A stretch of DNA of 27,206 bases from Streptomyces sp. V1I1 (GTDB lineage Bacteria > Actinomycetota > Actinomycetes > Streptomycetales > Streptomycetaceae). The DNA is taken from contig NZ_JAUSZH010000002.1 of NCBI RefSeq assembly GCF_030817355.1, positions 1 through 27,206 on the forward strand, given 5' to 3'. The notes under the pieces were generated by a model that saw only the letters and a list, made by a program, of their open reading frames with translations, was not told the DNA's origin and did not search any database. Position numbers and translations under genes: made by a program. Below are positions 1 to 27,206 of the stretch, piece by piece (positions within the stretch are counted from its first letter, which is position 1; every line of letters starts with the position of its first letter).

Positions 1-74
1 GCTTGTTCTTTATGGTCTGACCTCGAACGACGTCCCGAACGTGATCGCTCGTACGAGGATTCCGGGGACGTGAA

Positions 75-137
75 CACGGCCTTCGTCTGATCCTGTGCTC
101 CGACCAAAGAGGCACTTGACCAGCAACGAAGGCCGTG
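75..137. repeat. Subterminal inverted repeat before the transposase start, element A
   Basis: Bases 75-86 (cacggccttcgt) and 126-137 (acgaaggccgtg) form a perfect 12-bp inverted repeat around a 39-base spacer. The right arm ends five bases before the ATG at 143. Element B keeps the same arrangement. It could be a transposase binding site or an mRNA stem that masks the ribosome binding site. Confidence 0.6.
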
Positions 138-142
138 GGGGG

Positions 143-1588
143 ATGAGTTTGCTGCATCACGATGTCGGGCGGGATCCGTTCACGGTGGCGTCACGCTTCC
201 GGGACGATTTCTTCGACTGCCTGACCGGGCGCGGGGACGAGTTGTTCGAACTGGCGGGCGCGCTGCTGTGTGCGGACGGGCCGGTGACCGCGCCGGTAGA
301 CCTGACGCTGGTGGCCGGGCACCGGCGTGGACACGGCGCGATGTACGACGCGCTGAACTGCGGGAGCGTGGACGTGCCGCGGTTGCGGCAGGTGCTGGCC
401 GGCTTGCCGCAACCCGAGGCCGCCGACGGGCGCCTGGTGCTGGCCGTGGACGTCACGAACTGGCTCCGCCCGGACGCACCCACCAGTCCGGATCGCTTGT
501 TCTGCCACGTCTACGGCCGCAGCGGCCGGTCCTCCGACCAGTTCGTGCCCGGCTGGCCCTACTCCTTCGTCGCCGCCCTGGAATCGGGCCGGACGTCATG
601 GTGCCAGCTCCTGGACGCCGTCCGTCCCGGCCCTGCCGACGACGTCGCCGAGGCTACTGCCACGCAGGTCCGCAGGGTGGTCGAGGACCTCATCGACATG
701 GGCCGGTGGCGCATCGGCGACCGCGACATCCTGATCGTCTTCGACGCTGGATACGACGCCCCGCGCATGGCCCACCTCCTGCACGGGCTGCCGGTGGAGG
801 TCCTCGGGCGGATGCGCACGGACCGGGTGATGCGCAGGCCGGTCCCGGTCCCGTGGATCTCGCCACCGCAGGGCGGCCGTCCGCCCAAGCACGGCAAGGA
901 GTTCCGCTTCGCCAAACCGGAGACCTGGGGCGAGCCGGACGCGGCCACCACGCAGGTCACCGACCGGTACGGCACCGCCCGCGCGATGGCCTGGGACCGC
1001 ATCCACCCCCGGCTGACCACCCGATCGGCGTGGATCGACCACACCGGTGAACTCCCCGTCATCGAGGGCACGTTGATCCGCCTCCAGGTCGACCGCCTGC
1101 CCGGCGGCAACGACCCGCTGCCGCTCTGGCTGTGGTCTTCGGCCACCGGCCTGACCGCCGCCGAAGTCGAGATCCGCTGGCAGGCGTTCCTGCGACGCTT
1201 CGACCTGGAACATACCTTCCGCATGATCAAACAGACCCTCGGCTGGACCCGCCCGAAGCTCCGCACCCCCGAGGCCGCGGACCGCTGGACCTGGCTGATC
1301 ATCGCGGCGCACACCCAACTCCGTCTCGTCCGCGAGGCCGCCGCCGACCTCCGCCGCCCCTGGGAGCGACCCGCCGAGCCCGGCCGCCTCACCCCCGCCA
1401 GAGTCCGCCGCGGGTTCAGGAACCTCCGCCCACACTTGACCTGTCCCGCCCGAGCGCCGAAACCATCCCGGCCGGGACCTGGCCGTCCTCCCGGCTCGAA
1501 GAACCGGCACCCGGCACCCCGTCACGACGTCGGCAAAACCGTCAAACGGCCCGAGGGCATCAAGGAACGCTCCCGGGCCGGAGGATAA
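143..1588 (+). CDS. DDE transposase of insertion sequence A
   Basis: The 481-residue protein should catalyse cut-and-paste transposition of the element around it. A DDE-type acidic triad is proposed: Asp in LAVDVTNWLRPD, Asp in IVFDAGYD, and Glu in the helix motif LEHTFRMIKQTLGW, which recalls the YREK region of IS4/IS701-type transposases. The C-terminus is basic (PGRPPGSKN). The start at 143 was chosen because MSLL aligns with the start of the second copy; an upstream GTG-type start at 95 would read through the subterminal inverted repeat. The frame is intact. It resembles a Streptomyces group that NCBI labels NF041680, from memory; placement in an IS family is tentative. Confidence 0.85.
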   Translation: MSLLHHDVGRDPFTVASRFRDDFFDCLTGRGDELFELAGALLCADGPVTAPVDLTLVAGHRRGHGAMYDALNCGSVDVPRLRQVLAGLPQPEAADGRLVLAVDVTNWLRPDAPTSPDRLFCHVYGRSGRSSDQFVPGWPYSFVAALESGRTSWCQLLDAVRPGPADDVAEATATQVRRVVEDLIDMGRWRIGDRDILIVFDAGYDAPRMAHLLHGLPVEVLGRMRTDRVMRRPVPVPWISPPQGGRPPKHGKEFRFAKPETWGEPDAATTQVTDRYGTARAMAWDRIHPRLTTRSAWIDHTGELPVIEGTLIRLQVDRLPGGNDPLPLWLWSSATGLTAAEVEIRWQAFLRRFDLEHTFRMIKQTLGWTRPKLRTPEAADRWTWLIIAAHTQLRLVREAAADLRRPWERPAEPGRLTPARVRRGFRNLRPHLTCPARAPKPSRPGPGRPPGSKNRHPAPRHDVGKTVKRPEGIKERSRAGG

Positions 1589-1614
1589 AGAACAAGCTGA
1601 GCTTGTTCTTTATC
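1584..1614. repeat. Palindromic IS-IS junction
   Basis: The right terminal repeat of element A (1584-1598, gataaagaacaagct) and the left terminal repeat of element B (1600-1614, agcttgttctttatc) are perfect reverse complements separated by one G. Together they make a 31-base near-perfect palindrome. Confidence 0.85.
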
Positions 1615-1675
1615 TTCGAGCCTCGAACGGGCTTCGAACTTGAGGCAGGTTTTCGCAGTTCACCGGCTATGTGAG

Positions 1676-1733
1676 CGGCCTTCGCGCGATCGTGTGCCGT
1701 GTTGAGTAAGGCATCTGATCAGCACGAAGGCCG
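1676..1733. repeat. Subterminal inverted repeat before the transposase start, element B
   Basis: cggccttcg (1676-1684) and cgaaggccg (1725-1733) form a 9-bp inverted repeat with a 40-base spacer, just before the ATG at 1739. It is the counterpart of the repeat at 75-137 although the surrounding sequence has diverged. Confidence 0.55.
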
Positions 1734-1738
1734 TGGAC

Positions 1739-3178
1739 ATGAGTCTGCTCTTATCCGGGCCCCGGCGGGAGGCGTTCGCGCAAGCGTCACGCTTCAGGGG
1801 CAAGTTCTATGCGTGTCTGACCGCTCGGCGCGATGAACTGTTTGAGCTCACCGACGCGGTGCTGTGTGCCGACGGCCCGGTGAAGTCGCCCGTCGACCTG
1901 ACGCTCCTGCCCGAACACCGGCGTGGGCACGGGGCGTTGTACGGCGGGCTCAACCGCGGCCGGATCGATGTCGGACGGCTGCGGGCGGTGCTCGCGGGAC
2001 TGCCGCTGCCGCGTTTCCCGGACGGTCGGCTCGTCCTGGCCGTCGATGTGTCGCCATGGTTGCGCTCGGATGCGCCATGCTCGAAGGATCGGCTGTTCTG
2101 CCACGTCTACGGCCGCGCGAAGAGCGCGTCGCAGTTCATCCCGGGTTGGCCGTACTCCTTCGTGGCCGTGCTGGAGCCCGGCCGCACCTCCTGGACCACC
2201 GTCCTGGACGTCGTCCGGCTCGGACCCGTCGACGACGCCACCGCCGTGACCGCCGCCCAGCTGCGGGCCGTGGTCGAGCGGCTCGTCGCTGCCGGCCAGT
2301 GGACGCCGGGCCAGCCGGACATTGTGATCGTCGGTGATGCCGGATACGACATCACGCGCCTGGCCTGGGTCCTTCGCGACCTGCCCGTCGAGGTGGTCGG
2401 CCCGATCCGTTCCGACCGGGTCATGCGGCTGCCGAAGCCGCCGCGGGTCTACGACCCCAAGGGCGGGCGTCCGCCCAAGCACGGCAAGGAGTTCCGCTTC
2501 GCCAAGCCGGACACCTGGCCGGAGCCTACGATCACGACGATCACGGACACCACGAACTACGGCAAGGCCCAGACACAGGCCTGGGACCGGGTCCACCCGC
2601 GCCTGACTCATCGCTCGGCCTGGCTCGACCACCAGGGCGAACTACCCCTGGTCGAGGGCACATTGATCCGACTGAAGGTCGAGCACCTCTCGAAGGAGCG
2701 CGAGGCGCCGCCGGTGTGGCTGTGGTCCTCGAAGACCGGTGCCAGCCTCGCTGACGTCGACCGTTGCTGGCAGGTGTTCCTGCGCCGCTTCGATCTGGAG
2801 CACACATTTCGCTTCGTAAAGCAGACCCTCGGCTGGACCACCCCGAAGGTCCGCATTCCCGAGGCAGCGGACCGCTGGATCTGGATCCTTGTCGCAGCTC
2901 TTGCCCAGCTGAGGCTAGCCCGCCCTCTCGCCCAGGACCTCCGCCGCCCCTGGGAGAAACCAGCCTTGCCCAACCAGCTGACCCCGGCCCGGGTCCGCCG
3001 GGGGTTCAGGAACATCCGCGCTCACATCCTCTGCCCGGCCCGTGTTCCCAAACCCAACGGCACCGGCCCCGGTCGGCCACCCGGAGCCAAGAACAAACAC
3101 CGGGCACCCCGCTACGACGTCGGCAAGACCGTCAAACGCGCCGAGACCCTCGCCGAACTCCACGCGTCTCGAAGATAA
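1739..3178 (+). CDS. DDE transposase of insertion sequence B
   Basis: This 479-residue protein is homologous to the transposase at 143-1588 over its whole length, sharing the blocks LFCHVYGR, GRPPKHGKEFRFAKP, RFDLEHTFR and KQTLGWT. The proposed acidic residues are conserved: Asp in LAVDVSPW, Asp in IVGDAGYD and Glu in LEHTFRFVKQTLGW. The start at 1739 (MSLL) matches copy A; a GTG two codons upstream is possible. As in copy A, the stop codon falls in the terminal inverted repeat. The frame is intact, so both elements may be active. Confidence 0.85.
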   Translation: MSLLLSGPRREAFAQASRFRGKFYACLTARRDELFELTDAVLCADGPVKSPVDLTLLPEHRRGHGALYGGLNRGRIDVGRLRAVLAGLPLPRFPDGRLVLAVDVSPWLRSDAPCSKDRLFCHVYGRAKSASQFIPGWPYSFVAVLEPGRTSWTTVLDVVRLGPVDDATAVTAAQLRAVVERLVAAGQWTPGQPDIVIVGDAGYDITRLAWVLRDLPVEVVGPIRSDRVMRLPKPPRVYDPKGGRPPKHGKEFRFAKPDTWPEPTITTITDTTNYGKAQTQAWDRVHPRLTHRSAWLDHQGELPLVEGTLIRLKVEHLSKEREAPPVWLWSSKTGASLADVDRCWQVFLRRFDLEHTFRFVKQTLGWTTPKVRIPEAADRWIWILVAALAQLRLARPLAQDLRRPWEKPALPNQLTPARVRRGFRNIRAHILCPARVPKPNGTGPGRPPGAKNKHRAPRYDVGKTVKRAETLAELHASRR

Positions 3179-3249
3179 AGAACAAGCTCACGGACTGGCG
3201 CCGCTGAGGCCGTTGCTGCCCGCTTGTCGTCCGGCCCGGACGGGACGGG

Positions 3250-5358
3250 CTAACCGTCAGCTCCAGGCCGGTTGCCGGCCGTGAACGCCTCCTCCACACG
3301 ATCCTGCAGCCGGGCGTGACGGAACTGGAAGACGGGCCCCACCGTGCGCAGGACGTGACGCTCGCGAGCATCCGAGAGAAACTTGACCAGGCGGACCGGA
3401 GCCTCGTTCCTCCGGCGCAGCTGGAGGCTCGCGAGGAACGCGCGCCAGGTCACCGATCCGACCAGGCTCAGCGCCAGGCTGAGCAGGAGGCCGCCCACCG
3501 TCACCAGTGCGATCCCGGACAGGAATCCGTCGATGAGTCCGAAGATGCGATGGTCCGTCAGTTCGGCGAGCAGACCCAGGCATGATCCTCCGATGAGACT
3601 GCCGGCGAGGCCGCCGGCGATTCCGGCCGTCAGCGTGTACTGGCGGTCCTGTCTCCAGCACGAGACGGGATCGATGGGAGTCCGGCTGTCGGCGCTGCGG
3701 TTGCTGAGACCCGTGACGAATCCGCCCACCACACCGGCGAGGAGGCCGAACACCAGGCCGCCGAAAAGCATGACGACGCGGCCATGGGCGAGGAGCAGGG
3801 CGACGCCTAACGCCAGTCCAAGCGCTCCACCGCCGGCGATCCCGAACAGGAAGTTCTCGCGGACGACGAAGTCCCTCCACTGCAGACGGCCCAGCAGCTG
3901 GGGGGAGTCCCCGGCACGCCCGTACGTGAGTGACATCGTCACGGAAAGTCCCACCACCGCACCGGCTATCAGGCCGGCGGCCGGCCCCGCCCAGAAGAAG
4001 CCCGCCGCCCCGGCGAGAACTCCCAGGCAGAGGCAACTGGCCGCCGTTCTCGGCCAGGCCGACCGCCACCGGGGGACCTGCCACCAGGCGAGGTCGCGGC
4101 TTCCCTCGCTGTTCATCCGGTGCGCGATGACGCCGAGCCAGCGCTCGGCCTGGCCGAGACTGTAGCGACTGCGCGGCTGACCCAGCCGGTCGTCGTCATA
4201 GGCGGCGGGCAGGACTCGATCGAGAAGGTGGTCCTCCACCGCCGCCCGGTCCGCGAAGCGCTCGAGGTCGAAGCGCTGATCCGCGCGGTAGGTGTCACGC
4301 ATCAGCGTGAGCATCAGGGGTGTGTCCAGTGCCTGAGCCACTGCGCCCAAAGGGTTCATACGGATGTGCTGCACCAGACCGCGCCAGGCGTCCGGGGGCG
4401 GCTGCGCCTGGCAGCGCGTCAGGTACTCCGCCGCGTCCTCGGCGCTGACCGGAAGCAGTTCGAGGCCGGCGGAGCCTGACAGGGGTCCCGCCGCGGCAAC
4501 GGCCGTCAGAAGCTCCCCGACCCGGCTCAACAGGACCAGGCGGAAGTTCGCCTGCTCGTCCAGCGCCCGCAGAGCCACGGGGCGTACGGCTTCGGGTATC
4601 TCGTCCAGCCCGTCCAGAAAGACGGCGACCCGACCCGCGCCGATGAGTCTGGAGACAACACCGCCCGCGTGTTCTTCGGACTTCCTGAACATGTAGTCCG
4701 TGGCCAGTCGAGTGGCGAGCCAGTCATGCAGCCGCTGCTTCCGCGGGTCCCATCCGCTCAGCGTCAGCAGCACTGGTACGGGAACTCTCGCGCGCGCGCC
4801 GGCTTCGAGCGCCTCGCGATGCGCGAGGGCGTCGAGCAGCAACCTAATGACGGCGCCGCTCTTGCCCGCACCGCCTGCTCCGACGATCACCATCCGCCCG
4901 GAGTCCAACGCACCATAGAGGCGGAACAAGTCCCGAACGCCGCCCGACTCCAGATCCGCCGGGGTGATCGGGTCCAGCCCCAGCAGGGGCCCAAACCGCG
5001 ATGAGCCGGTCCCGATGCCCACCGCATCGGTCGCCGGACCCGATACGGGGAGACTCGACCACCTCCAGCGCACCGGCACGGGGCTCGGATGTATCAGCCG
5101 CCGTTCGCTCGCCGCGGCGCTCCACTGCGCCTTCACTCGCTCAGCCAGCTCGTCCGCGAAGTCACGCAGTGCCAGTTCGGTGTGTGCCGTCCGGGGCCTG
5201 CGGTTCGTCAGAAATAACGCCCCGCTGGCGGCGGGAACGACGACCGCGGCGATCCCCTGGACGAGCGTGGCCGCGGAGTCCCGGTCATGGGACCGGAAGA
5301 CGAAGGCCAGGGCGACGAAGACGACGACTGCGATGATCAGCAAACCCACGATGACCAT
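3250..5358 (-). CDS. Membrane-anchored NACHT/STAND NTPase
   Basis: The 702-residue protein begins with a transmembrane helix (about residues 2-22) and a second hydrophobic stretch (31-51). A P-loop follows: Walker A GAGGAGKS at about 160-167 and Walker B VFLDGLDE at about 246-253, the D-x-(G/A)-L-D-E form typical of NACHT domains. From about residue 440 there are several glycine-rich membrane segments. NACHT proteins are signal-transducing ATPases; in bacteria some act in phage defence. Here the ATPase would sit at the membrane, and the membrane part could be sensor or effector, which is inference. The start at 5358 has an AGGAGG nine bases upstream; a longer frame starting at 5436 lacks this and would place a polar stretch before the first helix. 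The gene stands alone between two IS elements. Confidence 0.8.
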   Translation of the reverse strand: MVIVGLLIIAVVVFVALAFVFRSHDRDSAATLVQGIAAVVVPAASGALFLTNRRPRTAHTELALRDFADELAERVKAQWSAAASERRLIHPSPVPVRWRWSSLPVSGPATDAVGIGTGSSRFGPLLGLDPITPADLESGGVRDLFRLYGALDSGRMVIVGAGGAGKSGAVIRLLLDALAHREALEAGARARVPVPVLLTLSGWDPRKQRLHDWLATRLATDYMFRKSEEHAGGVVSRLIGAGRVAVFLDGLDEIPEAVRPVALRALDEQANFRLVLLSRVGELLTAVAAAGPLSGSAGLELLPVSAEDAAEYLTRCQAQPPPDAWRGLVQHIRMNPLGAVAQALDTPLMLTLMRDTYRADQRFDLERFADRAAVEDHLLDRVLPAAYDDDRLGQPRSRYSLGQAERWLGVIAHRMNSEGSRDLAWWQVPRWRSAWPRTAASCLCLGVLAGAAGFFWAGPAAGLIAGAVVGLSVTMSLTYGRAGDSPQLLGRLQWRDFVVRENFLFGIAGGGALGLALGVALLLAHGRVVMLFGGLVFGLLAGVVGGFVTGLSNRSADSRTPIDPVSCWRQDRQYTLTAGIAGGLAGSLIGGSCLGLLAELTDHRIFGLIDGFLSGIALVTVGGLLLSLALSLVGSVTWRAFLASLQLRRRNEAPVRLVKFLSDARERHVLRTVGPVFQFRHARLQDRVEEAFTAGNRPGADG

Positions 5359-5591
5359 GCAAGTCCCCCTCCTGGCACCGTACCGGGAGTGTGTCAGAGG
5401 GTTACAGGCCGTGTCCTTCGATCGGCCGTGCAGCACGTCACGCGAGGCAGACAGGGTTACGTCCAGCTGTCACGAATCCAGCTGCTACCAGCGGTATGAC
5501 GACTCTACGTCACGCTCGTTGTCCCTCTGGCTGTCCGACTTCGGTGGCAAACGGTCCAGGTTCAGTGTCAGAGGGCAAGAAGGACTGTCCT

Positions 5592-5639
5592 GTCTCAACG
5601 AAGTTAGTCGTTGGCAGACCGCTGACCTAGCGGTGGTTT
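5592..5639. repeat. Left terminal repeat of the IS701-type element (two blocks)
   Basis: The outer block 5592-5609 and the inner block 5627-5639 are separated by 17 bases. Both have reverse-complement partners at the right end. Confidence 0.7.
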
Positions 5640-5682
5640 TAGGCCGGACAGTGGGAGCTTTGCTCACTCTTCGGGGGCTGTG

Positions 5683-7105
5683 ATGACCAAGCGTGTGCCG
5701 TGTCCGCCCGCTCCGGGCCCACTGGAAGCCTATGCCGCGCGTTTCGATGACCTCTTCTCCACGCTGGCACAGCGCCGGGGGTTCCGCGAGTATCTCGCCG
5801 GGTTACTGCTGCCGAGGGACCGCAACAAGACGCTGACCTGCCTGGCCGGGACGGAGCCTGTGGCCGGTGCCCAGCATGCGGCGGTGCAGCGGCTGCAGTT
5901 CTTCCTGTCCGAGTCGACGTGGGACCTGGAGAAGGTCAACGCCCGGCGTGTGGAACTGCTGCTTGCGGACCCGGCCACGGCCCCGCACGCGGGCGGGGTG
6001 CTGGTGATCGACGATTCCGGAGACCGCAAGGACGGCACTGCCACCGCCCACGTGGGCAAGCAGTACCTGGGCTCGGTCGGGAAGATCGACCGCGGCGTCG
6101 TCGCGGTGACCACCTGCTGGGCCGACGAGCGCGTCTACTACCCGCTGCACGCCGTCCCCTACACCCCCGCCCACCACTTCCCGAAAGGGAAGAACGACGC
6201 CGGCTTCCGCACGAAACTGCAGATCGGGGCCGCCCTGGCCCGTGATGCCCCCCGGGCGGGGGTGTCCTTGCGGGCGGTCGCCGCCGACTGCGCTTACGGC
6301 GACCAGGACGCCTTCCGCAGGCAACTGGACGCCGCAGGACTGCCGTTCGTGATGGCACTCAAGCCCCGCCGGGGAGCCTGGTCATACGGTGACGAGGCGT
6401 ACACGCCCGTGGATGCCGCCCGCAACCTTATCTGGGGCGGCCCTGAGGCCCCCGGGAACTGGACCACGGTCACACGAACCTTCCGTGACGGGCACACCGC
6501 TACCTGGTGGGCCGCCGACGCACAGCTGGGCTGGTGGGGACCGGATGGCACCACGCGCCTGGTGGTGGCCACCACCGACCCGGCCACCCTGCCCGCGCAG
6601 TCCACCTGGTACCTGGCCACCGACCTGCCCCGGCCCGGCGGACCACGGGAGGCGGACAGCCCGGCCCCAGCTGCCGACCTGGCCGAAATTGTGCGAATCT
6701 ACGGCATCCGGCACTGGATCGAGCAGAGCTACAAGCAGGTCAAGGACGAACTCGGCTGGGCAGACTTCCAGGTCCGCTCCGACACCGCCATCCGCCGCCA
6801 CCAGACCCTCGTCACCTGCGCGTTCAGCTTCTGCTGGGACACCTGGTTTGCCCCGCCCCCGCCTGCCACGGATGAGGAGGAGCCGGTGCCCAGCCGGCCA
6901 GAGAGGGGGTATTGCGCCGTCCCACCAGACCCAGCAGGCCTGCTGGCCCCAAGCCCTCCGGGCCGTCCGTGGCTGGCTGACGCCCTGGGCCACGCTGCAA
7001 CGCTACTGGCGAGCGTGGACAGCCAAGCCCCCGCCCACCGAGCTCCAGGCCCTGATCAACGCTGTCGGCACCGGCAGACCTCTTAACCTCTACCTCCCGG
7101 CCTAA
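5683..7105 (+). pseudogene. IS701-family transposase, frameshifted near the C-terminus
   Basis: This is an IS701-type DDE transposase. Acidic residues are seen in VLVIDDSGDRKDG, in AVAADCAYGD and in HWIEQSYKQVKDELGW. The frame is normal to the stretch of five G at 6905-6909. After that, the expected C-terminus (QALRAVRGWLTPWATLQRYW to LNLYLPA) continues in the next frame and stops at 7105, while the original frame ends at 7086 with unrelated residues. Removing one G restores the whole protein. The cause may be a real one-base insertion, a sequencing error, or programmed +1 frameshifting; the first two are more likely. A GTG at 5680 directly precedes the chosen ATG. The catalytic part is complete, so some activity cannot be excluded. 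Confidence 0.75.
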
Positions 7106-7106
7106 C

Positions 7107-7140
7107 AAACCACCGCTAGTCGGACTAACTTCGTCGAGAC
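7107..7140. repeat. Right terminal repeat of the IS701-type element (two blocks)
   Basis: The inner block 7107-7119 (aaaccaccgctag) and the outer block 7123-7140 are separated by only three bases. Confidence 0.7.
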
Positions 7141-7449
7141 TTTCTCCCTGTTCTTGGTGTGGGGGTCCCGTGTTGAGTGCGGAGATTCCCGGCTGTCTGG
7201 TGGCCTTTCAAAGCGGTGCTGGGACCGAGCGTTTCAGCCGGCGCTCCATCTGGCCAGCCTGTGGGTTGTGACCGCGCTTGCGTGATGGATACGCCTGACT
7301 CCGGCTACTTACTACGGCGTGCGGCTGACACGTCACGCTGGCACCGCCCACACCCCGCTGAGGTCTGGCCGCTGATTCTGGTAGGGGGGAAGGGCGACCT
7401 GGAAATCCCGTCAGGTCTCGCGGCTGGCGGCAGAAGAACTGACACGAGG
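7141..7449. other. Non-coding stretch right of the IS701-type element
   Basis: I see no convincing gene here. Open frames on both strands lack a ribosome binding site and recognisable sequence. It holds the downstream region of the leftward gene that ends at 7450. Confidence 0.5.
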
Positions 7450-8232
7450 TCACTCGTCGGGCGGCCGAGGCGGCTCAGAAGGCGGGTTTTCGTCTGGCGG
7501 GGGCTGAGGCGGTTCTCCACTGATCGAACCGACCGCTTGCCACCTGCGGTTCTCGGGGTCCCAACGAATGTGGCGTTGAGACAGGCCCTCTCGAGCAAGT
7601 TGCGCCAGCTGGGCCGCAGCTTCGGCGGGAATCTCCTTCGGACATTCGATGACACAGTTGTTCTCAACGTCGTGGATCACCGCCCAGGTTGTGTCTTGAG
7701 CGGAGCCATCACGAACTACCGGTGTAGCCCGGGATAGTGCGCGCTTCAAGATTTGATAGGCGTCTTCGGCTGCCTTCCCCGCCATGGACGACAGGAACGC
7801 ACCGGCGAGGGTGAACACCGAGATCGTGGCCACGGGGTTTCCCAGGACCAGCGACATCACGTCCATCCGCACGTCGTGCGACGTCTCGATGTGGACATCC
7901 ACCTCGGCTGCCAGCCCGGGGCCATCGTTCATGACTAAGAGAGCCTGCTTCACGGCTGTGGCGCCCCCGGGTGTGATCGGCGCAGACGCCCTGCCCACTG
8001 CCCAGTACTCGTGGGCGACAGGTCCGTCGGCAGCCCATCCAACGAGGCGCAACCGTCGATGGACCCCACCTTGTGGGTCTTCTCGATACGCCACTATCTC
8101 CGCAGCCCAACGAAGATCGCCGGGGCGCCCGAAGAAGTGGGGTGCCATGCCGTACGAGGTGCTTTCGATGACCCAACCGGCCGCCACGAGTGCCGCCTTC
8201 TGTGGTCCACCGAAGGTGTCAGGTTGACTCAT
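7450..8232 (-). CDS. Unknown protein with a central hydrophobic segment and proline-rich tail
   Basis: I do not recognise a named family for this protein of about 260 residues. The N-terminal half looks like a mixed alpha/beta domain. A hydrophobic segment (NPVATISVFTLAGAFLSSMAG, about 140-160) is followed by KAAEDAYQILKRAL, a strand-rich section and the closing motif HIRWDPENRRW, then a proline-rich acidic tail. A hydrophobic linker followed by a small domain ending in L-x-W-D resembles companion proteins of actinobacterial conflict systems; this is a weak inference. The start could be 8241 or 8232; 8232 was chosen because GGGG lies just upstream. The gene lies immediately downstream of a broken protease gene. 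Confidence 0.65.
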   Translation of the reverse strand: MSQPDTFGGPQKAALVAAGWVIESTSYGMAPHFFGRPGDLRWAAEIVAYREDPQGGVHRRLRLVGWAADGPVAHEYWAVGRASAPITPGGATAVKQALLVMNDGPGLAAEVDVHIETSHDVRMDVMSLVLGNPVATISVFTLAGAFLSSMAGKAAEDAYQILKRALSRATPVVRDGSAQDTTWAVIHDVENNCVIECPKEIPAEAAAQLAQLAREGLSQRHIRWDPENRRWQAVGSISGEPPQPPPDENPPSEPPRPPDE

Positions 8233-8271
8233 GGGCCCCATCGTGGCTGATGTTGCGTGACAAGAACCAGG

Positions 8272-8625
8272 TCAGACCTGAACGCGAGCCCGTGAGCAAT
8301 CACCAGCCATGCCGAGGTGGGAACGCTTCAGGGTGCCCAGGCGATTCTGCGCAATCCGGTTGTCGTCATGCGGGCCGGGCTCCACGACGTCGTCGCCCAG
8401 CTCGCCGTCGGGCCCGTGCAGAACATGCCAGTTGCTCAGGACGTAGGGCGTGCCGTCCATCTTGTCGAAGACGACGCAGCCGAGGGTCCGGCCGAGACCT
8501 TCACGTGTCCGACGCTCGCACCGGGCAGGTTCGGGTCGAGGCGCCGCTTGCGCGTCGGGCTCTCCGCCTCGGCCACCGCCACCACGCCAAGCAGTGGTCA
8601 GCCCTGCTTCGATATCCGGCTCCAT
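8272..8625 (-). pseudogene. Trypsin-like serine protease remnant
   Basis: One frame reads GRTLGCVVFDKMDGTPYVLSNWHVLHG, with the catalytic-His motif of trypsin-fold peptidases (SNWHVL), then ENRIAQNRLG-like sequence and RSHLGMAGDCSRAR. The upstream part of the same domain (VAEAESPTRKRRLDPNLPG, then ASVGHVKVSAG) is in a different frame, so at least one frameshift lies near 8500-8510, and another change is likely near 8580. The sequence stops after the GDC motif, well before the Asp and Ser of the triad. A deletion has joined this stub to the region before the unknown gene at 8232. It is non-functional as a protease. Confidence 0.7.
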
Positions 8626-8919
8626 GGCAGGCTCAACGCACCCCCGATCGGGTGGGTCACGAACCACCACCGCTCTGATGCAGCGTCAGCCCACTAGACT
8701 CGAAACAGGCACGCTGACCAGGACAAATGGAGAAGCACAACTGGAGTACTAGAGGGCCCAGTGTCTGAACGTCCACGGATTCCGCCGAACGTTCCTGAAC
8801 GCCTTGGGCCGTTCAGCGTTGCGCCGGTTCGCATAGCCCGGTGACCTGCGACGTCCAGGTCTATGCGGGGCCGTACGGATCACTAGGTGCCCGGGGGTGT
8901 GCGGCGGTCTGCTGGAGGC

Positions 8920-9150
8920 ATGGCTGACATCGACACAACCTCCCAGACGCCCGAGCCCGAACTGCCCCCCGCCTCCCGGGAGCCGGCGCTGCCGCCTGAG
9001 CCGACGCGGCACCAGGTACTTGACATGGTGGTCCTCGTTGCCCTGCTGGGCGTGTGCGCGGGGGTGTACCGCGCGGTCGGGAACGCCGGCTTCTCCGTGA
9101 TCACCGGGGCAGTCGCCGGGCTGTACGGCACCTGGCGCATCCGGCGCTGA
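8920..9150 (+). CDS. Small membrane protein, unknown function
   Basis: The 76-residue protein has an acidic, proline-rich N-terminus (TPEPELPPASREP) and two hydrophobic stretches, VVLVALLGVCAGVYRAV and FSVITGAVAGLYGTW, ending in basic RIRR. It is probably an inner-membrane protein with a short hairpin. GGAGG lies only one base before the ATG at 8920, which is very close; a GTG at 8887 in frame is an alternative. No family is recognised. About 250 bases upstream (8671-8919) show repeated gaacg motifs, including the palindrome gaacgttc near 8789, but no gene. Confidence 0.55.
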   Translation: MADIDTTSQTPEPELPPASREPALPPEPTRHQVLDMVVLVALLGVCAGVYRAVGNAGFSVITGAVAGLYGTWRIRR

Positions 9151-9187
9151 CTGGGCAGGTCGCTTCCGGTTGGACCCGTTGGCCCTA

Positions 9188-9212
9188 GGGCGCGTATCGG
9201 GTCGTGATCAAT
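9188..9212. repeat. Left terminal inverted repeat of the IS5-type element
   Basis: It matches the reverse complement of 10259-10283 at 24 of 25 positions. Confidence 0.85.
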
Positions 9213-9260
9213 CTGTCGATTCGCCCTCGTGGTGAGGCCTGGACCGGTAGATCTTCTTCC

Positions 9261-10263
9261 GTGACGCGAGTGCAACTGACGGACGCGGAGTGGGAGTTCA
9301 TCGGGCCGTACCTGCCGATCGGCGAGTACGGCCCGTATCCCGAGCGGTTACGGCAGCAGTTCGAGGGTGTGATCTGGCGGTTCAGGACCGGCGGACAGTG
9401 GCGGGAGATGCCGGAGGAGTTTGGTGCCTGGTCGACCGTCCACAACCGCTTCCGGCAATGGCGTGACGCCGGCGTCTTCGAGGCCCTGCTGGAGAGTCTG
9501 ATCGCGGAAGCGGCGAAGCGGGGTGAGGTGGACCTGTCCCTGGTCAGCATCGACTCCACCACCGCGCGTGCTCACCACGACGCGGCCGGGATGCACCTGG
9601 GCGAGGACGTCCTCGGCGCACTGGAGAAGGCTGCCGCCGAGGCGGAGAAGGCCAGGTCAAAAGGGGCAGTCTCGAAGAACAAGACGGACAGGAGGTCGAG
9701 ATCGATCCCGAGCGGGAGGAGCGACGACGCATCCGGCGCCGGCGAAAACTCCGGCTGAAGACCGCCCTCCTGGGACGCTCCCGGGCGGGCAGACCAGCAA
9801 GGTTCACCTGGCCGCCGACCGCAAGTGCCGCCCGCTGGCGTTCGTGCTGACCGCAGGCCAGGCTGCCGACAGCCCACAGTTCATCCCCGTGCTGGGGAAG
9901 ATACGGGTCCGCGGCCCCGTCGGCCGCCCCCGCACCCGGCCGGACGCGGTCGCCGGGGACAAGGCCTACTCCTCCCGCGGCAACCGGGCCCACCTGCGCA
10001 GACGCGGTATCAAGGCAGTGATCCCGGAGAAGAGGGACCAGACCGCCAACCGGAAGAAGAAGGGCTCCGCGGGCGGTCGGCCTGTCAGCCACGACGCCGA
10101 TCTCTACAAGGAGAGGAACACCGTCGAGCGCCTGATCAACAAGCTCAAGGCCTGGCGAGGGATCGCCACCCGATACGACAAGACACCGGACAGCTACCTC
10201 GCCGGCCTCCACCTGCGCGCCTCAATGATCTGGGTGAAGGACCTCGCCCGGACCACCAATTGA
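9261..10263 (+). pseudogene. IS5-family transposase split over three frames
   Basis: The N-terminal domain (VQLTDAEWEFIGPYLP to LVSIDSTTARAHHDAAG, including the first catalytic Asp) is in one frame from the GTG at 9261. The middle (DPEREERRRIRRRRKLRLK, then TALLGRSR) is in a second frame from about 9683. The C-terminal part (GGQTSKVHLAADRKCRPLAF, AVAGDKAYSSRGNR with the second Asp, ERNTVERLINKLKAWRGIAT with the Glu) is in a third frame from about 9784. Both joins need a one-base addition. IS5 elements can use one programmed frameshift, but two successive shifts of the same sign point to decay or sequencing indels. All catalytic motifs are present. Confidence 0.8.
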
Positions 10264-10283
10264 TCACGACTCGATACGCGCCC
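10259..10283. repeat. Right terminal inverted repeat of the IS5-type element
   Basis: It is the partner of 9188-9212. It starts at the very end of the transposase reading frame, just before its stop. Confidence 0.85.
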
Positions 10284-10285
10284 TA

Positions 10286-10992
10286 ACGGACTCCACGTCA
10301 GGGAAGGGGTTCTTTCGCCCAGCCGGAGGCGGCCCACAACGACACGGAAGTCACTGCCATGCCAGCTCTCGCTCTGCAGAGGCGGAAGCTGCCGCAGTGC
10401 GGCAGGCTGTTGGCGCGGATGCCTCCCCTCGGACGGGGCCGTTGCAGGTGTGCAGCTCACGCACGTGCGCAGCGATGCGTGCCGCTCCGGGCCGCCCAGC
10501 GTCGCGACGGCAACCTTCGCCCAGTTGAGCGATGCTTCCACTCCACGGAGTTTTCCCTTCGATCTCCAGCTCACCGTAGGCCGGGCCAGGCCGTGAACGA
10601 CACGGCCCCCGATGACCCACATGGGGCGTCGGCTCAGGCACGATGGGCGAATGGATCATGGAGCAGCACCGCTGGCTGGCAGCACCCGTCGCAGTATCGC
10701 CATTGAGACGACTTCCACGACGCGGCGACGGGGATGAAGGTCAATGTTGGGAGCCGTCGTTGGAGGCTTCGTGCCGCCAAGGCGTGTCGTGATCGCTGGT
10801 GGATGGCGCGGGCGGATCGGCACGGGGGTGGCGGAGTTTCCGCGGTCTCGCCTCTGTCAGCGACCGATGGCCCCGCCCGAGCGGGCGGAGCCTTCAAGCC
10901 TCCTGGGACTCCGCACGTCTTGTCTCCCAAGGGGGTCGGCAGCCGCGGTTCGCTGCGGTCAGCACTGGCCCGGAAGGGCGAGCAACCGGTGA
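10286..10992. other. Long stretch without a convincing gene
   Basis: Several frames are open on both strands but none has recognisable protein motifs or a good ribosome binding site. A hairpin-like sequence (cgcccgagcgggcg, near 10877) lies near the 3' side of the leftward SUKH gene. I see nothing else. Confidence 0.5.
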
Positions 10993-11679
10993 TCAAGCGC
11001 CGCTGCTGGTCGCCTGCTCCCAGGCGGTGAGGACGTCGGCGGGGATGCGTCCGCGGTCGGGTACCTGGTAGCCATTGGCGCGGGCCCAGGCCCGGACGGC
11101 TTTGCCGTCGATGGCCCGGCCTGCCGAGGGAGGTGCGGGCTCGGGGTCGCGGCGGGCTGCCGTTGAGGGGGTGAAGAAGGCTCCCTGGTCGAGGAGGTCA
11201 CTGGGGAACAAGGGCACTTTCGTCTCGCCGCTGAGGACTGAGGCGAGGAAGTGTGTGAGAGTGCCGTCGAAGGTGTACCAGCCGGGACCGCGGGCTTCGT
11301 TGACGGCGATACCCCAAGCGTCAGGCTCCGTTGCCGGGTCGGTGATCCAGAACAGGTATTCACCGTTGTCGGTCACGCCAATGGCGAAGAGGTCTGCCGG
11401 GTCGTAGGGGACTGGGTAGGTGCCGCGGTCGTGTCCCTGCTCGAGCTGGGCGCGGATGGTGGCGGGCATCGGGCCGGTGAGGTTGACCCACTCAGTCGCC
11501 CCGTGCGGGTGGTAGATGTTGATGAATCCGCAGAAGGCGCCCGGACCGTAGGTGGTCGCCATCTGCTTGTAGTCGTCGGGCAGTCGCATGCCGAGGGTGT
11601 TCTCGACTGTGTCCCAGTCCACGGGGGGCGGGCCGGCGGGGGGCGGGCTGAGCCGGGTGAGGTCGTTGAAGCTGGTCAC
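10993..11679 (-). CDS. SUKH (SMI1/KNR4) immunity-like protein with Lsr2-type C-terminal domain
   Basis: The 228-residue protein has an SMI1/KNR4 (SUKH) fold in its first 150 residues: VDWDTVENTLGMRLPDDYK, then YGPGAFCGFINIYHP, and DNGEYLFWITD. SUKH proteins commonly neutralise nuclease toxins. The last 40 residues (AVRAWARANGYQV, DRGRIPADVLTAWEQA) match the DNA-binding tail of the actinobacterial nucleoid protein Lsr2, including the RGR that inserts into AT-rich minor grooves. The GTG start overlaps the stop codon of the upstream RHS toxin (GTGA), with GAGGA five bases before, so the two are translationally coupled. It is therefore the likely immunity protein of that toxin. Why it carries a DNA-binding tail is open: autoregulation or nucleoid placement are guesses. 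Confidence 0.85.
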   Translation of the reverse strand: MTSFNDLTRLSPPPAGPPPVDWDTVENTLGMRLPDDYKQMATTYGPGAFCGFINIYHPHGATEWVNLTGPMPATIRAQLEQGHDRGTYPVPYDPADLFAIGVTDNGEYLFWITDPATEPDAWGIAVNEARGPGWYTFDGTLTHFLASVLSGETKVPLFPSDLLDQGAFFTPSTAARRDPEPAPPSAGRAIDGKAVRAWARANGYQVPDRGRIPADVLTAWEQATSSGA

Positions 11680-14600
11680 AGGAGTCCTCGGCGGTGTCGC
11701 TGTTGCTGTTCGTGGGCGGGGTTGGTCATCGGGACGTCCAGGCTGAAGCCGCGGTTTCCGGTGGCTTCGAGCTGAATGTACTTCGGTACGGAGTCCTTTT
11801 CATCGTCGGTGTACTCGAGGTAGACGTTGTAGGTGATGATCTCGCCGTCCGCAACGGCGTTGTAGATATCCTGCTCCCAGTCCCGCATGTCAGGGCTGTT
11901 CGTCGGGTTCTGGGTGATGGTGAACAGGTTGTCCAACGTGTCGCCGGATCCGCCCAGCATTCTGGCCAGCATGTGCCCGCGCGCTTGGTTGTAGTCGCCG
12001 CCAAGGAAGCCTGGCGGCTCCAGCGAGTTCCTGGCATGAGTGCCTTCGTCGAGCATGTCCCGGGTGATGATCGCATTCATCTCGTAGGGGCGGCCGTGCT
12101 CGTCGCGGGTGAAGGTGACCCGCCGTCCCCAGGTGGGGTCGGCGTCGCAGCCCGCCAGGCCCAGCGGGTCGGCCAGGGTGAAGGGGTTGGGGACGTAGGC
12201 GTAGTGGTTGATGGCCGGGGCAAGGCCGAGGGGATCGGGGGTGATGTAGCGGCCGAGGTCGGGGTCGTAGTAGCGGTTGACGTTGTAGTGGAGTCCGGTT
12301 TCGGGGTCGAAGTACTGGCCCGGATAGCGCAGCGGGGTGTAGGCGGTACTGTCGCGGTTCCACTGGGTGATGCCCCAGGCGGTAGAGCGGGCGCGCCAGG
12401 CGAGGGCTCCGTCCGGGTCGACGAGTTCACTGGGACTGCCGGACAGGTCGGTGACGATGGCGAAGAACCGCCGATCGATCTCTTCCTGGGCGGTGTCGGT
12501 CTTGATCTCACGCTGTGCGAGCGGGCGCAACCCTGCGTAGTCCCACACCAGGGTGGTGCTGTCGGTGTACTGCTCGGCCAACTGCGCGCCGTCCCAGCAG
12601 TAGGAGGTGGCCTCGGTGAATTGGCCATCGGTGTCCAGTCGCTGTTTGGCGAGTCGGCGGCCGAGGGCGTCGTAGAGGTAGCGCCACCGGCCGGTGGGGG
12701 TCTCGGCGTGGGTGAGCCGGTCTTCGGCGTCCCAGGTGAAGCGCCAGGTAAGGGTCTTTCCCGAGAGGGTGTTCGTCTGGCGGAGGGTGAGGCGGCCCTG
12801 GGCGTCGTAGCGGTAGCGGGTGCGTCCGGCTCGGGTGATGCGGGTGCCGTGGTAGCCACGTTCTCCGGTGTTGTCCTGGCCGGGTGCCCGCGGGGGAAGG
12901 GCGGTGTGGGTCTGGTCGCCGGCAGTGTTGTAGGCGTACTGCTCGGTCCACCCGCGGGCGTGGACTGTGGTGATCCTGCTGGCGGCGTCAACGGTGTAGG
13001 TGCGGCGGCCGGTGTGGCTGTCGTCGACGCTGAGGGGTGAGCCGTCGGCCTGATATGCGAAGGCACGTTCCAGGACGGTGTCGTGTGGGGTGCTCAGGGA
13101 CTGGTGGACGCAGCGCCCTACCGCGTCCCACTCCTGGCGGAGAGTGATCGTGTCCTGGAGCGTGCGGGCCGTTTCGCGTCCGAGCGCGTCGCGGGAGAAG
13201 CTGAATGAGTGGTCTCCGGCGGCGTAGGTGGCCAGCCCTTCCCACGTGTAGGCGAGGTCGCTGCTGGCACCGGAGGGGGTGCGCCGGTGGGTGCGGCGGC
13301 CCAGAGCGTCGTAGGCCAAGGTCAGGGTGCGGCCGTTGGCGGTCTCGGCCACGACCCGTCCTGCTGCGTCGCGCTCGAGGTCGATGCGGGCGTGGGCGTT
13401 CGTGATCTGGGAGACGTGGCCGGTCTCGCCGCGGGAGAAGGTGGAGACAGAGCCGTCGTCGTGGTGCAGGCGGGTGACGCGGCCAAGGATGTCGCGTTCG
13501 AACATCAGAGTCTGCCCGGCGGCGTTGGTGCGGCGCACCAGGCGGCCGAGCGCGTCGTGCTCGTAGGTCAGGGTGCGGCCGTCGAAGTCTGTCTCGGATA
13601 TGAGGCGGCCGGCCGCGTCGTAGGTGTACTCCCATTCCAGGCCTTGGGCGTTGGTGACCTTGGTCAGTCGCAGCTCGGTGTCGTGGGTGAAGCGGTATGC
13701 GCCGCCCCCGGTGTGGGTGGTGGCGGGCTGGTCGAAGTGGGTGGCTGTGTAGGTGCTGGTGCGGCCCATGCGATCGGTGTGGGACGTGAGGTTGCCTTCG
13801 CCGTCCCAGGTCCATTCCTCCCTGGTGCCGTCGGGCAGCTCGCGCCATGCGGGCTTTCCCTCGGTCGTCCATCCCTGGCGGAGGGTGCCGCCGACAGCGT
13901 CGGTGACCGTGGTGGCGCGGCCGAAGGCGTCCCGGGAGCAGACGGTGCTCGCGCCGTCAGGGGCGGTGATCCGCAGCGGCAGGCCGGCCGCGTCGGTCGT
14001 GATCCGTGTGACGTCGCCGACCGCGTTGCGTACGGCGATCACGTGTCCGCGATGGTTGAACTCGTACTCGGTACGGGCCCCGCTGGGCTCGATGACCATA
14101 GTGCGGTTGCCCTGGTCGTCGTATGCGTACTGGCGCTGAATCCCGCCCCGTTCGGTGACCGTGACGGGCTGGCGCAGCTGGTTGTACACGGCGGTGGTGC
14201 GCACCCCGTCGGGGGCGACGAGGCCGACGAGGCTGCCGTCGGTGTCACGTTCGAAGCGGGTGGTGTGTCCCAGGGCGTCGGTCTGCGCCAGCACCTGGTC
14301 GTAGGCGTCGAACTCGAAGTGCGTGGTGTGCCCCAGGGGGTCGGTCTCGGCGACGATCTGCAGGGCCTGGTTGACGTGGAAGAGGGTGGTGGCGCCGGTG
14401 GAGTCGGTATAGCGGGTAACGCGGTGGCCGGGCTCGCTGTGGACGTCATAGGTGAACGCGGAGGAGAGGAATCCGTCCGGTCCGGTGGTTCGGGTGACAC
14501 GACCCGTGCTGTCGTAGGTGTAGTGGTAGGTGGAGTCTTTGCGGTCAGTCCAGGACGTGACGCGCCCGTCCTGGTCGTAGGTGAACCGCAGCGGAAGCCC

Positions 14601-16349: not shown

Positions 16350-17032
16350 GACGCAACAACCCCCGCAGCAAACGCAATCGAACAGAAACAAGATCAACCA
16401 GCATGCCATGAGACGCGCGTGCGGTCCCAGGAGGTTCCCGGTCACCTCGGCGGCAAAAGGTCTGGGAAGACCGATGGCACAAGGGAGTCCCCTTGTCGGC
16501 GCGGTCGTCGTACGCCGGACCGCAGCTGTCCATGAGCTCGCAGATCTACGCGGTGCTGGAGCCGGTGCACTGGCTGCTGGAGCAGGTGAACAACCCGTTC
16601 GTGGCGCGCCGTGTACGGGGAGGAGCTGTCGAGTCCGGTGACTCGCCTCTCATCAGAGCGAGCTGGTGGGCTGAGGCGGGAGGCCAGAACGGCCGAGCTT
16701 ATGGGAGCTCTTCCCGGCGTCACGGTCCTCACCTGGACCTGCCCGCCCCCCTGGTCGTGGTTCGGCGGGAGTCATGGGCCGCCGCCACGCAGAGCACGCG
16801 GCGCAGCCCGCCCCGGATCGGACGGGCGGAGCGATCGTCGCCGCCACCGCGCCGAAGCGGTGGGAGGGCAGGCCGTCTGAGTCCTGGACTTGACTCCGTG
16901 ACAGACGCCGGGGCCGGAAGCCGGTCAGTTGCCGGGGTTCGGGGCCTATGGCATGCCCTCGCTACGCCCTCTTGGGCCAGGTCCGTGCTATTGCGGTGAT
17001 CTCCCACGTGCCCCGGATCCTTGGCGCGCTGC
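16350..17032. other. Upstream region of the RHS operon, no clear gene
   Basis: It should contain the toxin promoter, which I cannot pinpoint. A 39-codon frame at 16774-16893 (+) has GGGAG just before its ATG but unrecognised sequence; I do not call it as a gene. Coding-like fragments in two frames at 16541-16720 (for example VYGEELSSPVTRL) may be gene remains. Confidence 0.4.
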
Positions 17033-26417: not shown

Positions 26418-26451
26418 AACAGAAAGGGCCCCGAAAGGGGCCCTTTCTGTT
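26418..26451 (+). terminator. Intrinsic terminator after the GNAT gene
   Basis: A perfect 15-bp stem (aacagaaagggcccc) closes a gaaa loop and is followed by a T-rich stretch (ttcctcttcc). It starts 15 bases after the stop. Confidence 0.9.
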
Positions 26452-26594
26452 TTCCTCTTCCCCGTTCGGCGTGTTTCTGGTGGGGTTTGGTTTCCTTCTC
26501 ATTTTGTCTGACGTAGCGTCAGTTTCGGAGAGTGTGAGAGTGTGTCAGGTGTTGGGTCTGGGAAATTCGTCGGCCGTCTCAGTGTCGCCTTAAA
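26452..26594. other. Entry to the terminal non-coding region
   Basis: It is T- and G-rich on the plus strand and has no gene. A 6-bp hairpin with loop tag (ctgacg/cgtcag) lies at 26508-26522. Confidence 0.5.
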
Positions 26595-26674
26595 GTGAAT
26601 TCCCGGAGCGCTCTATTCGGCCGTAAGGCCGCTTCGGAATTCCGGGGCCGGCCTGCTCGTGCCCGGGAATTCAC
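26595..26674. repeat. Nested hairpin structure
   Basis: An outer 12-bp inverted repeat (gtgaattcccgg at 26595-26606, ccgggaattcac at 26663-26674) encloses a small hairpin at 26618-26631 (5-bp stem, loop gtaa) and the palindromes cggaattccg and ggccggcc. A branched fold is possible. Confidence 0.75.
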
Positions 26675-26765
26675 GCACACGCCGATAAGCGCGCGACGCT
26701 GCGCCCGGCAGGGCGCTCCCACCCACTCCCGTGCACCCGCCCCGGGACACCCTCGCCCCCAGTCC

Positions 26766-27202
26766 CCCGTACCGCTGTACGGGTACCGTCACCCACCACC
26801 ACACCCCCTCGGCCCCGACAGGGGCCCACCACACCCCCGACACTCCGTCACCCTGCCTATCAGGCAGGGGACATGAGCCCAGAACCCAGACTCTAGCCAC
26901 ACCCCAACTTCGAAACACCCCCGCACCCCTCGGCCCCGACAGGGGCCGGGCCCCTGCCCCCACGAGTCCGCCACCGGCGGACACCCCAACACATGACACA
27001 CCATCAATTCCCGCAACGCGGGAATCCAAGAAAGCCTGAAAGGCTTTCAAAAACCCACAACCAAGAATTCCCGACAGGGAATTCAAGCACGCCCAGAATA
27101 ACCCCCGAAGGGGGTTATTAGAAACCACCCCGAATTCGCCGCCAGGCGAATTCCTGCGGAATTCCGCCGAAAGGCGGAATTCAATAGGGAGCTTTAGCTC
27201 CC
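26766..27202. repeat. Array of short perfect hairpins at the window end, telomere-like
   Basis: Stems (length, loop on the plus strand): 26766-26783 (7, cgct), 26811-26826 (6, gaca), 26851-26869 (8, atc), 26932-26947 (6, gaca), 26966-26982 (7, acc), 27007-27025 (8, aac), 27030-27048 (8, gaa), 27065-27084 (8, gaca), 27097-27119 (10, gaa), 27132-27153 (9, gcca), 27159-27182 (10, gaaa), 27187-27202 (6 to 8, ttta). Four outer stems contain gaattc or aattcc. No gene is seen. Density rises toward the end. This is the organisation of a linear-replicon telomere, but the archetypal Streptomyces terminal sequence is not present. Confidence 0.7.
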
Positions 27203-27206
27203 TCCG

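Follow-up and report, generated by a model that had tools for sequence, protein, structure and literature searches.

The stretch of DNA analysed here (the window) is the whole of contig C2 of Streptomyces sp. V1I1, 27,206 b in length. Three DDE_5 transposase genes, the first two of which are 71% alike in DNA, lie on its + strand at 95-7086, near the inner edge of the terminal repeat described below. The - strand at 10993-16445 encodes a protein with Rhs repeats, WXG100-like at its start and endonuclease-like at its end, and a SUKH/Lsr2-domain protein follows; by its domains the first would be a polymorphic toxin at the terminal repeat, and the second the product of a likely immunity gene. Directly 3' of a GNAT gene stands an inverted repeat that has the appearance of an ordinary transcription terminator, and the right edge carries a dense array of hairpins (Table 1). 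A preliminary description of the sequence had counted about 14 perfect hairpins, nearly half of them in the last 200 b, a count that we confirm: 14 such hairpins (stem of at least 6 bp, loop of 1-6 nt) lie in 26508-27206, seven of them in 27007-27203, far above the number in shuffled sequence. Four listed ORFs of at least 80 aa also fall within 26508-27206.

Table 1. Features of the chromosome end of Streptomyces sp. V1I1 (window coordinates, except those prefixed C1, which refer to the chromosome contig)
Feature	Position	Strand	Remark
Terminal inverted repeat, part common to both C1 ends	1..12801	.	left C1 end 1-12129, right C1 end 1-12801
15-bp inverted repeat directly 3' of GNAT gene	26418..26451	+	outside the telomere count; terminator by appearance
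Telomere, hairpin array conserved with linear plasmid ends	26615..27206	+ (3'-ending, overhang strand)	inner border approximate
Hairpin GGCCCC-GACA-GGGGCC	26811..26826	+	
Inner hairpin, 8-bp stem, ATC loop	26851..26869	+	weakly kept in plasmids, 59.4% of cells paired
Non-palindromic box CCCAGACTCTAGCCACACCCCAACTTCGAAACACCCC	26885..26922	+	~285-320 nt from the end; nearly invariant over 14 ends
Hairpin CGGCCCC-GACA-GGGGCCG	26931..26948	+	alternative to the hairpin picked at 26940-26956
Hairpin, 7-bp stem, ACC loop	26966..26982	+	
Hairpin, 8-bp stem, AAC loop	27007..27025	+	compensatory changes in three pairs
Hairpin, 8-bp stem, GAA loop	27030..27048	+	
Hairpin, 8-bp stem, GACA loop	27065..27084	+	one pair C-G in the window, G-C in seven plasmid ends
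Hairpin, 10-bp stem, GAA loop	27097..27119	+	compensatory change in plasmids
Hairpin, 9-bp stem, GCCA loop	27132..27153	+	conserved, 98.6% of cells paired
Hairpin, 10-bp stem, GAAA loop	27159..27182	+	conserved
Outermost hairpin AGGGAGCT-TT-AGCTCCCT	27186..27203	+	sequence absent from all 13 aligned plasmid ends
RS490-like gene, 273 aa, HTH	in C1:8205998-8209259	-	73% identical to plasmid protein
RS495-like gene, 83 aa	in C1:8205998-8209259	-	81% identical to plasmid protein
RS500-like gene, 742 aa, Tap/Tac-like	in C1:8205998-8209259	-	85% identical to plasmid protein

The V1I1 genome consists of two contigs (8,298,722 b in total), the other being the chromosome contig C1 of 8.27 Mb. BLASTN aligned window 1-12129 with C1 12127-1 in inverted orientation (99.97%) and window 1-12801 with C1 8258716-8271516 in direct orientation (99.98%), and the two ends of C1 align to each other over 12.1 kb. 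Since C2 matches at both ends of C1, the chromosome has terminal inverted repeats and C2 reads outward beyond each of them. The simple reading is that C2 represents a collapsed terminal inverted repeat of ~27 kb that the assembler was unable to position at both ends; terminal repeats, it has been noted, may end up as a contig of their own (PMC11260486). Its outermost known base is 27206, and the array thus sits at the outer edge of the terminal inverted repeat of a linear replicon. Looking for the same palindromes at the other replicon end had been suggested beforehand: the overlap of C2 with both C1 ends is direct, while the array at both ends, like the identity of the outermost 14.4 kb, is something we infer, because C2 and C1 are separate contigs.

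When loops are restricted to 3-6 nt, 300 dinucleotide shuffles gave 0.72 hairpins on average and 4 at most, against the 14 observed; for stems of at least 8 bp, seven were observed against 0.04. Counting stems of at least 7 bp, the array contains 89 stem bp, against a maximum of 22 in 699-b stretches taken every 100 b across the rest of the window. Folded as single-stranded DNA, the + strand of 26900-27206 reaches -80.9 kcal/mol (z = -11.4), the - strand having a z of -9.8, and the spacers of the last 320 b are rich in A and C (68 C, 48 A, 16 G, 9 T). The end thus has palindromes capable of folding on the 3' strand, one of the properties of a Streptomyces-type protein-capped telomere.

Matches to the array were found by blastn in 12 of 72,556 plasmid records, nine of which are from Streptomyces and are matched at most 61 nt from the record end; the three non-Streptomyces records, with matches of only 31-39 nt, were dropped. 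Eight Streptomyces linear plasmids (NZ_CP109591, NZ_CP108986, NZ_CP107747, NZ_CP109385, NZ_CP109342, NZ_CP108771, NZ_CP107846, NZ_CP108865) show 74.6-80.0% identity over 50-77% of the query, and the ninth, pSVL1, matches over 114 nt at its record end. The eight belong to the same telomere family as the window, although they are plasmids whereas the window is chromosomal. The array is present at both ends in five of the six plasmids read at both; NZ_CP107747 has it at the right end only. The plasmid matches start at 26615, but one alignment with NZ_CP107747 (72%) extends inward to 26421, so that the conserved part lacks a sharp inner border. At the outer border, six of the 13 aligned plasmid ends stop before the outermost hairpin of the window and seven continue with different sequence, NZ_CP108771 and NZ_CP107846 having a different hairpin in its place, which leaves the exact last bases uncertain. 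NZ_CP108865, a linear plasmid of S. virginiae, combines a window-type telomere at its one matched end with encoded Tpg and Tap and is perhaps a hybrid replicon. The record of pSCATT has no array at either end. Several linear plasmids, Rhodococcus pNSL1 among them, carry DUF3846 genes no more than a few kb from their ends.

Elsewhere, the distribution is narrow. Searched against 150 related genomes, the last 302 b gave a long match in the V1I1 genome only and matches of 27-64 nt in nine others; no match to the array was obtained in phage records, and none to the box pattern in viral contigs. The box, a candidate protein-binding site to judge from its conservation, was absent at up to one mismatch from all of 392 genus genomes besides V1I1, and a collection of 84,980 species yielded it in one contig, from Streptomyces sp. 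ISL-36, where it lies 85 nt from the contig end. In that strain, which also has an RS490 homologue, 219 nt align at 83%.

The window and 13 plasmid ends are colinear and were combined in an alignment of 14 ends, the array-less left end of NZ_CP107747 being left out. Pairing and covariation were counted over eight of these ends (the window and one end of each of seven plasmids). Standard pairs occupy 85.7% of 658 cells, against 27.5-55.5% with the partners slid by 1-3 columns, a control in which the window structure is favored because the structure was taken from the window itself. Changes on both sides are seen in 12 of 88 pairs, in 21 cells, against 0-3 pairs when slid. In one of five measures, which counts further pair types, the shuffles are not exceeded (156 of 500). 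Across the 14 ends, 71 of 100 loops are of the G..A form on the strand with the outward 3' end and one is T..C, which is G..A read on the opposite strand (two-sided binomial p = 3e-20, a value that overstates independence as the ends are related). Loop closure by a sheared G-A pair on the overhang is a described mark of Streptomyces telomeres (PMC4513846, PMC8743542, PMC7205883), and the bias fits what would be expected of a folded 3' overhang. The preliminary description had proposed that the array is a telomere whose palindromes fold in the 3' overhang; the passage of C2 beyond both C1 ends and the homologous arrays at linear plasmid ends support the former, and strand-specific loops together with covariation are in line with the latter. 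That the right edge is a telomere we regard as close to certain.

Neither a single-sequence search nor the NCBIfam model NF047541 found a match to Tpg in the V1I1 genome, and 40 of the 90 genomes searched pass the family cut-off. Tap is represented by a fragment with two stops (C1:232556-233008, + strand) and by weak matches to its HTH region. The working tap and tpg of the archetypal class were hence not detected in V1I1, and the broken tap is read as a trace of a former archetypal telomere system. A search for terminal protein genes other than tpg and tap, which the preliminary description had recommended, returned a candidate: when six whole plasmids were compared with the window and the outermost 420 kb of either C1 arm (with the remaining chromosome searched for Tap, Tpg, RS500 and the helicase only), a plasmid-type operon with intact frames was found ~77 kb from the tip (Table 1). 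Decayed partial copies of RS490, RS495 and RS500 lie beside it (C1:8195110-8197962, - strand). The operon is not the sole plasmid remnant, as other plasmid-like DNA occurs near 8.22-8.23 Mb and in the left arm. All nine plasmids with a matched telomere encode RS500 and a helicase, a co-occurrence that partly reflects common descent, since the plasmids share a backbone. The conserved plasmid helicase was also considered as a telomere protein and set aside: its V1I1 counterpart, a helicase-associated-domain protein, is in two frames (C1:8178471-8180949), and no match exists in the 20 kb around the RS500/RS490 pair of genome G052. Of 133 listed window ORFs, 20 were scanned with Pfam, and no terminal-protein candidate was among them. 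We lean towards the operon encoding a telomere-associated and a terminal protein, with RS500 and RS490 as the putative end-patching pair.

The link between this operon and a particular type of end is a loose one. Among 90 genomes, RS500 is full in V1I1 and G052 and partial in G028. In G052, which has no Tpg and no full-length Tap and carries an inverted repeat near its C1 ends, RS500 (54%) overlaps RS490 (46%) 33 kb from the contig end. At the start of its C1 (stretch 1-3000), the first ~250 b hold another array, in which each of six hairpins has a G..A loop on the 3' strand; the array has GCCA and GTCA loops and differs in sequence from the window telomere. Two further plasmids with RS500 have other arrays. 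In NBC_01207 the left end combines CTTG loops with 64 nt of archetypal-like sequence (E 7e-13), and the loops of the right end are GCA; in S. canus NBC_01002 the left end, the sole end read, has CTTG loops. Arrays of repeated CTTG-loop hairpins at the left ends of the RS500-bearing plasmids NZ_CP108555 and NZ_CP108710 may possibly constitute a further telomere type. Given the different arrays on two RS500 plasmids and the presence of Tpg alongside the partial RS500 of G028, operon and telomere type do not correspond strictly; more than one kind of end is served, or accompanied, by the RS500 gene family. A Y-family (IMS) polymerase gene lies at 26258-27328 of NZ_CP107747, and related genes occur in the five other plasmids compared whole; a link between translesion polymerases and the replication of Streptomyces telomeres has been described (PMC4513846).

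Close to the N terminus of RS490 is an HTH-like region, with helices at 18-52 in a model of mean pLDDT 88.2 and pTM 0.62, and many of its positions are invariant in an alignment of 74 rows drawn from the 120 matches listed of 276. Profile comparison with Tpg (15 rows, from the 120 matches listed of 2906) detected no homology. For RS500 (56 and 64 rows, from the 120 matches listed of 522), hhalign aligned the same middle region with Tap at an E of 0.05-0.09, which is not significant alone, and a single BLASTP comparison of the G052 RS500 protein with Tap gave E = 1.5e-4 over 194 aa. By sequence, no counterpart of RS500, RS490 or Tap was found among solved structures. RS500 carries the database label Mucin-19, in our view a misnomer. 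The order of its conserved residues, D....Y, R.ILL..IG, RTDA.Y, resembles the motif order of family-B DNA polymerases, and relatives at ~30% identity (pSCO2, Curtobacterium) keep the D and Y of the first motif and the D of the last. Tap and Tac add nucleotides to their own terminal proteins in vitro (PMC4513846), and Kitasatospora viridifaciens is described as being without tpg and having Tac-Tpc homologues on the right arm (PMC7188733). From this report, and from the relatives of the pair that pFRL3 and pSCO2, both listed as SCP1-type, encode, RS500 and RS490 are plausibly relatives of Tac and Tpc, by way of these plasmid pairs and not of the proteins of SCP1 itself.

Streptomyces replication forks run to the chromosome end and leave a 3' overhang, and protein capping is the rule for actinomycete linear plasmids. 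At the V1I1 end, the + strand would remain as the overhang once the forks arrive, and would fold into a row of hairpins with G..A loops and unpaired A/C-rich spacers. A telomere-associated protein of the Tap/Tac kind may bind these hairpins, perhaps together with the conserved box, and load a terminal protein, a side chain of which would prime synthesis of the missing 5' end; the RS500-like, RS495-like and RS490-like proteins are the candidates for this patching. The telomere was probably acquired from a linear plasmid by end exchange, in which it would have replaced an archetypal Tap/Tpg end and left the broken tap behind. We put the probability of this overall reading, a linear-chromosome telomere in a ~27-kb terminal inverted repeat at both ends, of plasmid origin, with the folded overhang patched by the proteins of the operon, at roughly 0.8. 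The chromosome would seem to have switched from Tap/Tpg to a plasmid-related telomere type. Telomeres are often lost from assemblies or left on a contig of their own, as C2 was here, and the box and the strand-biased loops offer rules for finding chromosome ends among such contigs.

Other explanations would give the array a different nature. Hairpins can truncate reads and the right arm contains plasmid material, so that an old plasmid end stranded inside the replicon, at which assembly halted because hairpins blocked sequencing, could mimic a telomere; we consider this very improbable, as C2 passes both C1 ends with the array at its outer edge, where the array has its only long match in the genome, and stems and box are conserved with replicon ends. 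Lower still is the chance that a protelomerase closed the end covalently as a hairpin, the arrangement of Borrelia and phage N15: the outermost element is indeed a short palindrome, yet instead of a single long terminal palindrome the array has numerous separate short hairpins, whose loops show a strand bias, and it is shared with actinomycete linear plasmids, for which protein capping is described as the rule (PMC4513846). Clustered transcription terminators, or repeats with no telomeric role, would account for dense hairpins in a region to which no gene is assigned; this explanation has in our view a negligible likelihood given the location of the array at replicon ends in plasmids, the loop strand bias and the absence, on inspection of the sequence, of T runs after the stems of 27007-27203.

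A more serious competitor accepts the telomere and disputes its proteins: patching would be performed by others, for instance GtpB/GtpA-like proteins, and the RS500 operon would be a passenger, a remnant of a plasmid. It draws on the imperfect correspondence between operon and telomere type, and on GtpB/GtpA having been described as a third known system (PMC7205883). We nonetheless hold it to be unlikely, as the operon is intact beside decayed copies and fragments, no working Tap or Tpg was found, and a comparable pairing exists in G052. Patching of the overhang by the operon proteins remains the reading that we prefer.

Six telomere classes are listed in PMC8743542, according to which others may await discovery, and characterized telomere proteins are reported there for Tap/Tpg and Tac/Tpc only. 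We compared the classes through one end each of pFRL1 (archetypal), pRL1, pSCO2 (SCP1-type) and pSGZL (Sg2247-type), the last two labels being those of PMC8743542 for records that are both marked circular. The label of pFRL1, which we assume to be archetypal by its sequence, rests partly on its Tap/Tpg genes. Its left end matches the window end over 19 nt (E 0.003) and gives only three short internal matches in the V1I1 genome, in agreement with the initial view that the archetypal palindrome is absent. The atypical classes, whose comparison had likewise been advised, gave no better likeness: 12 nt at best (E 1.4) for the left end of pRL1, 25 nt (E 0.12) for the end of pSCO2 and 17 nt (E 0.003) for the left end of pSGZL, the one member through which the Sg2247 class (terminal 150 bp) was compared; matches within that class are given as at least 19% coverage and 76% identity by blastn (PMC8743542). 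The 5' strand of pSCO2 starts GGGGGG; this 5' G run of the SCP1 class is absent from the window, whose - strand starts CGGAGGG. Hairpins with G..A loops occur in the compared ends of both pSCO2 and pSGZL. It is highly likely that the telomere differs from the four classes compared, and probable that it forms a new class rather than belonging to Sg13350 or pRL2. The open-access literature searched, to which most subscription papers do not belong, showed no description of the array or of the operon as its telomere proteins.

Of the SCP1 type (SCP1, pSCO2, pFRL3), two plasmids encode relatives of RS500 and RS490 (30% and 24% in pSCO2, 58% and 50% in pFRL3), but the pSCO2 end is unlike the window telomere and the left end of pFRL3 has no array. 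The Sg2247 type (pSGZL and others) resembles the window telomere by eye in short stems, G..A loops and AATTCC and CCCCC..GGGGG stems, whereas only 17 nt align and the pSGZL loops are GGA/GTA. We tentatively entertain, at somewhat less than even odds, a wider reading in which a seventh streptomycete telomere class moves between linear plasmids and chromosome with its own end-patching operon, and in which RS500 would be a divergent relative of Tap with a family-B-like motif order, so that Tap, Tac and relatives on Micrococcus, Cutibacterium and Curtobacterium plasmids would form one telomere-specific polymerase family; if true, a single family would explain the polymerase activity of Tap and Tac, which lack an assigned polymerase domain. 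From the archetypal Tap/Tpg telomere the V1I1 end differs in that only short stretches match, Tpg was not found in its genome and Tap is broken, and it nevertheless has in common with it the terminal inverted repeat, the purine-closed loops of the 3'-strand hairpins and a subtelomeric two-protein operon with the large gene first. To the known systems it would add a further conserved telomere class, one that has relatives on eight plasmids and for which a specific gene pair is the candidate.
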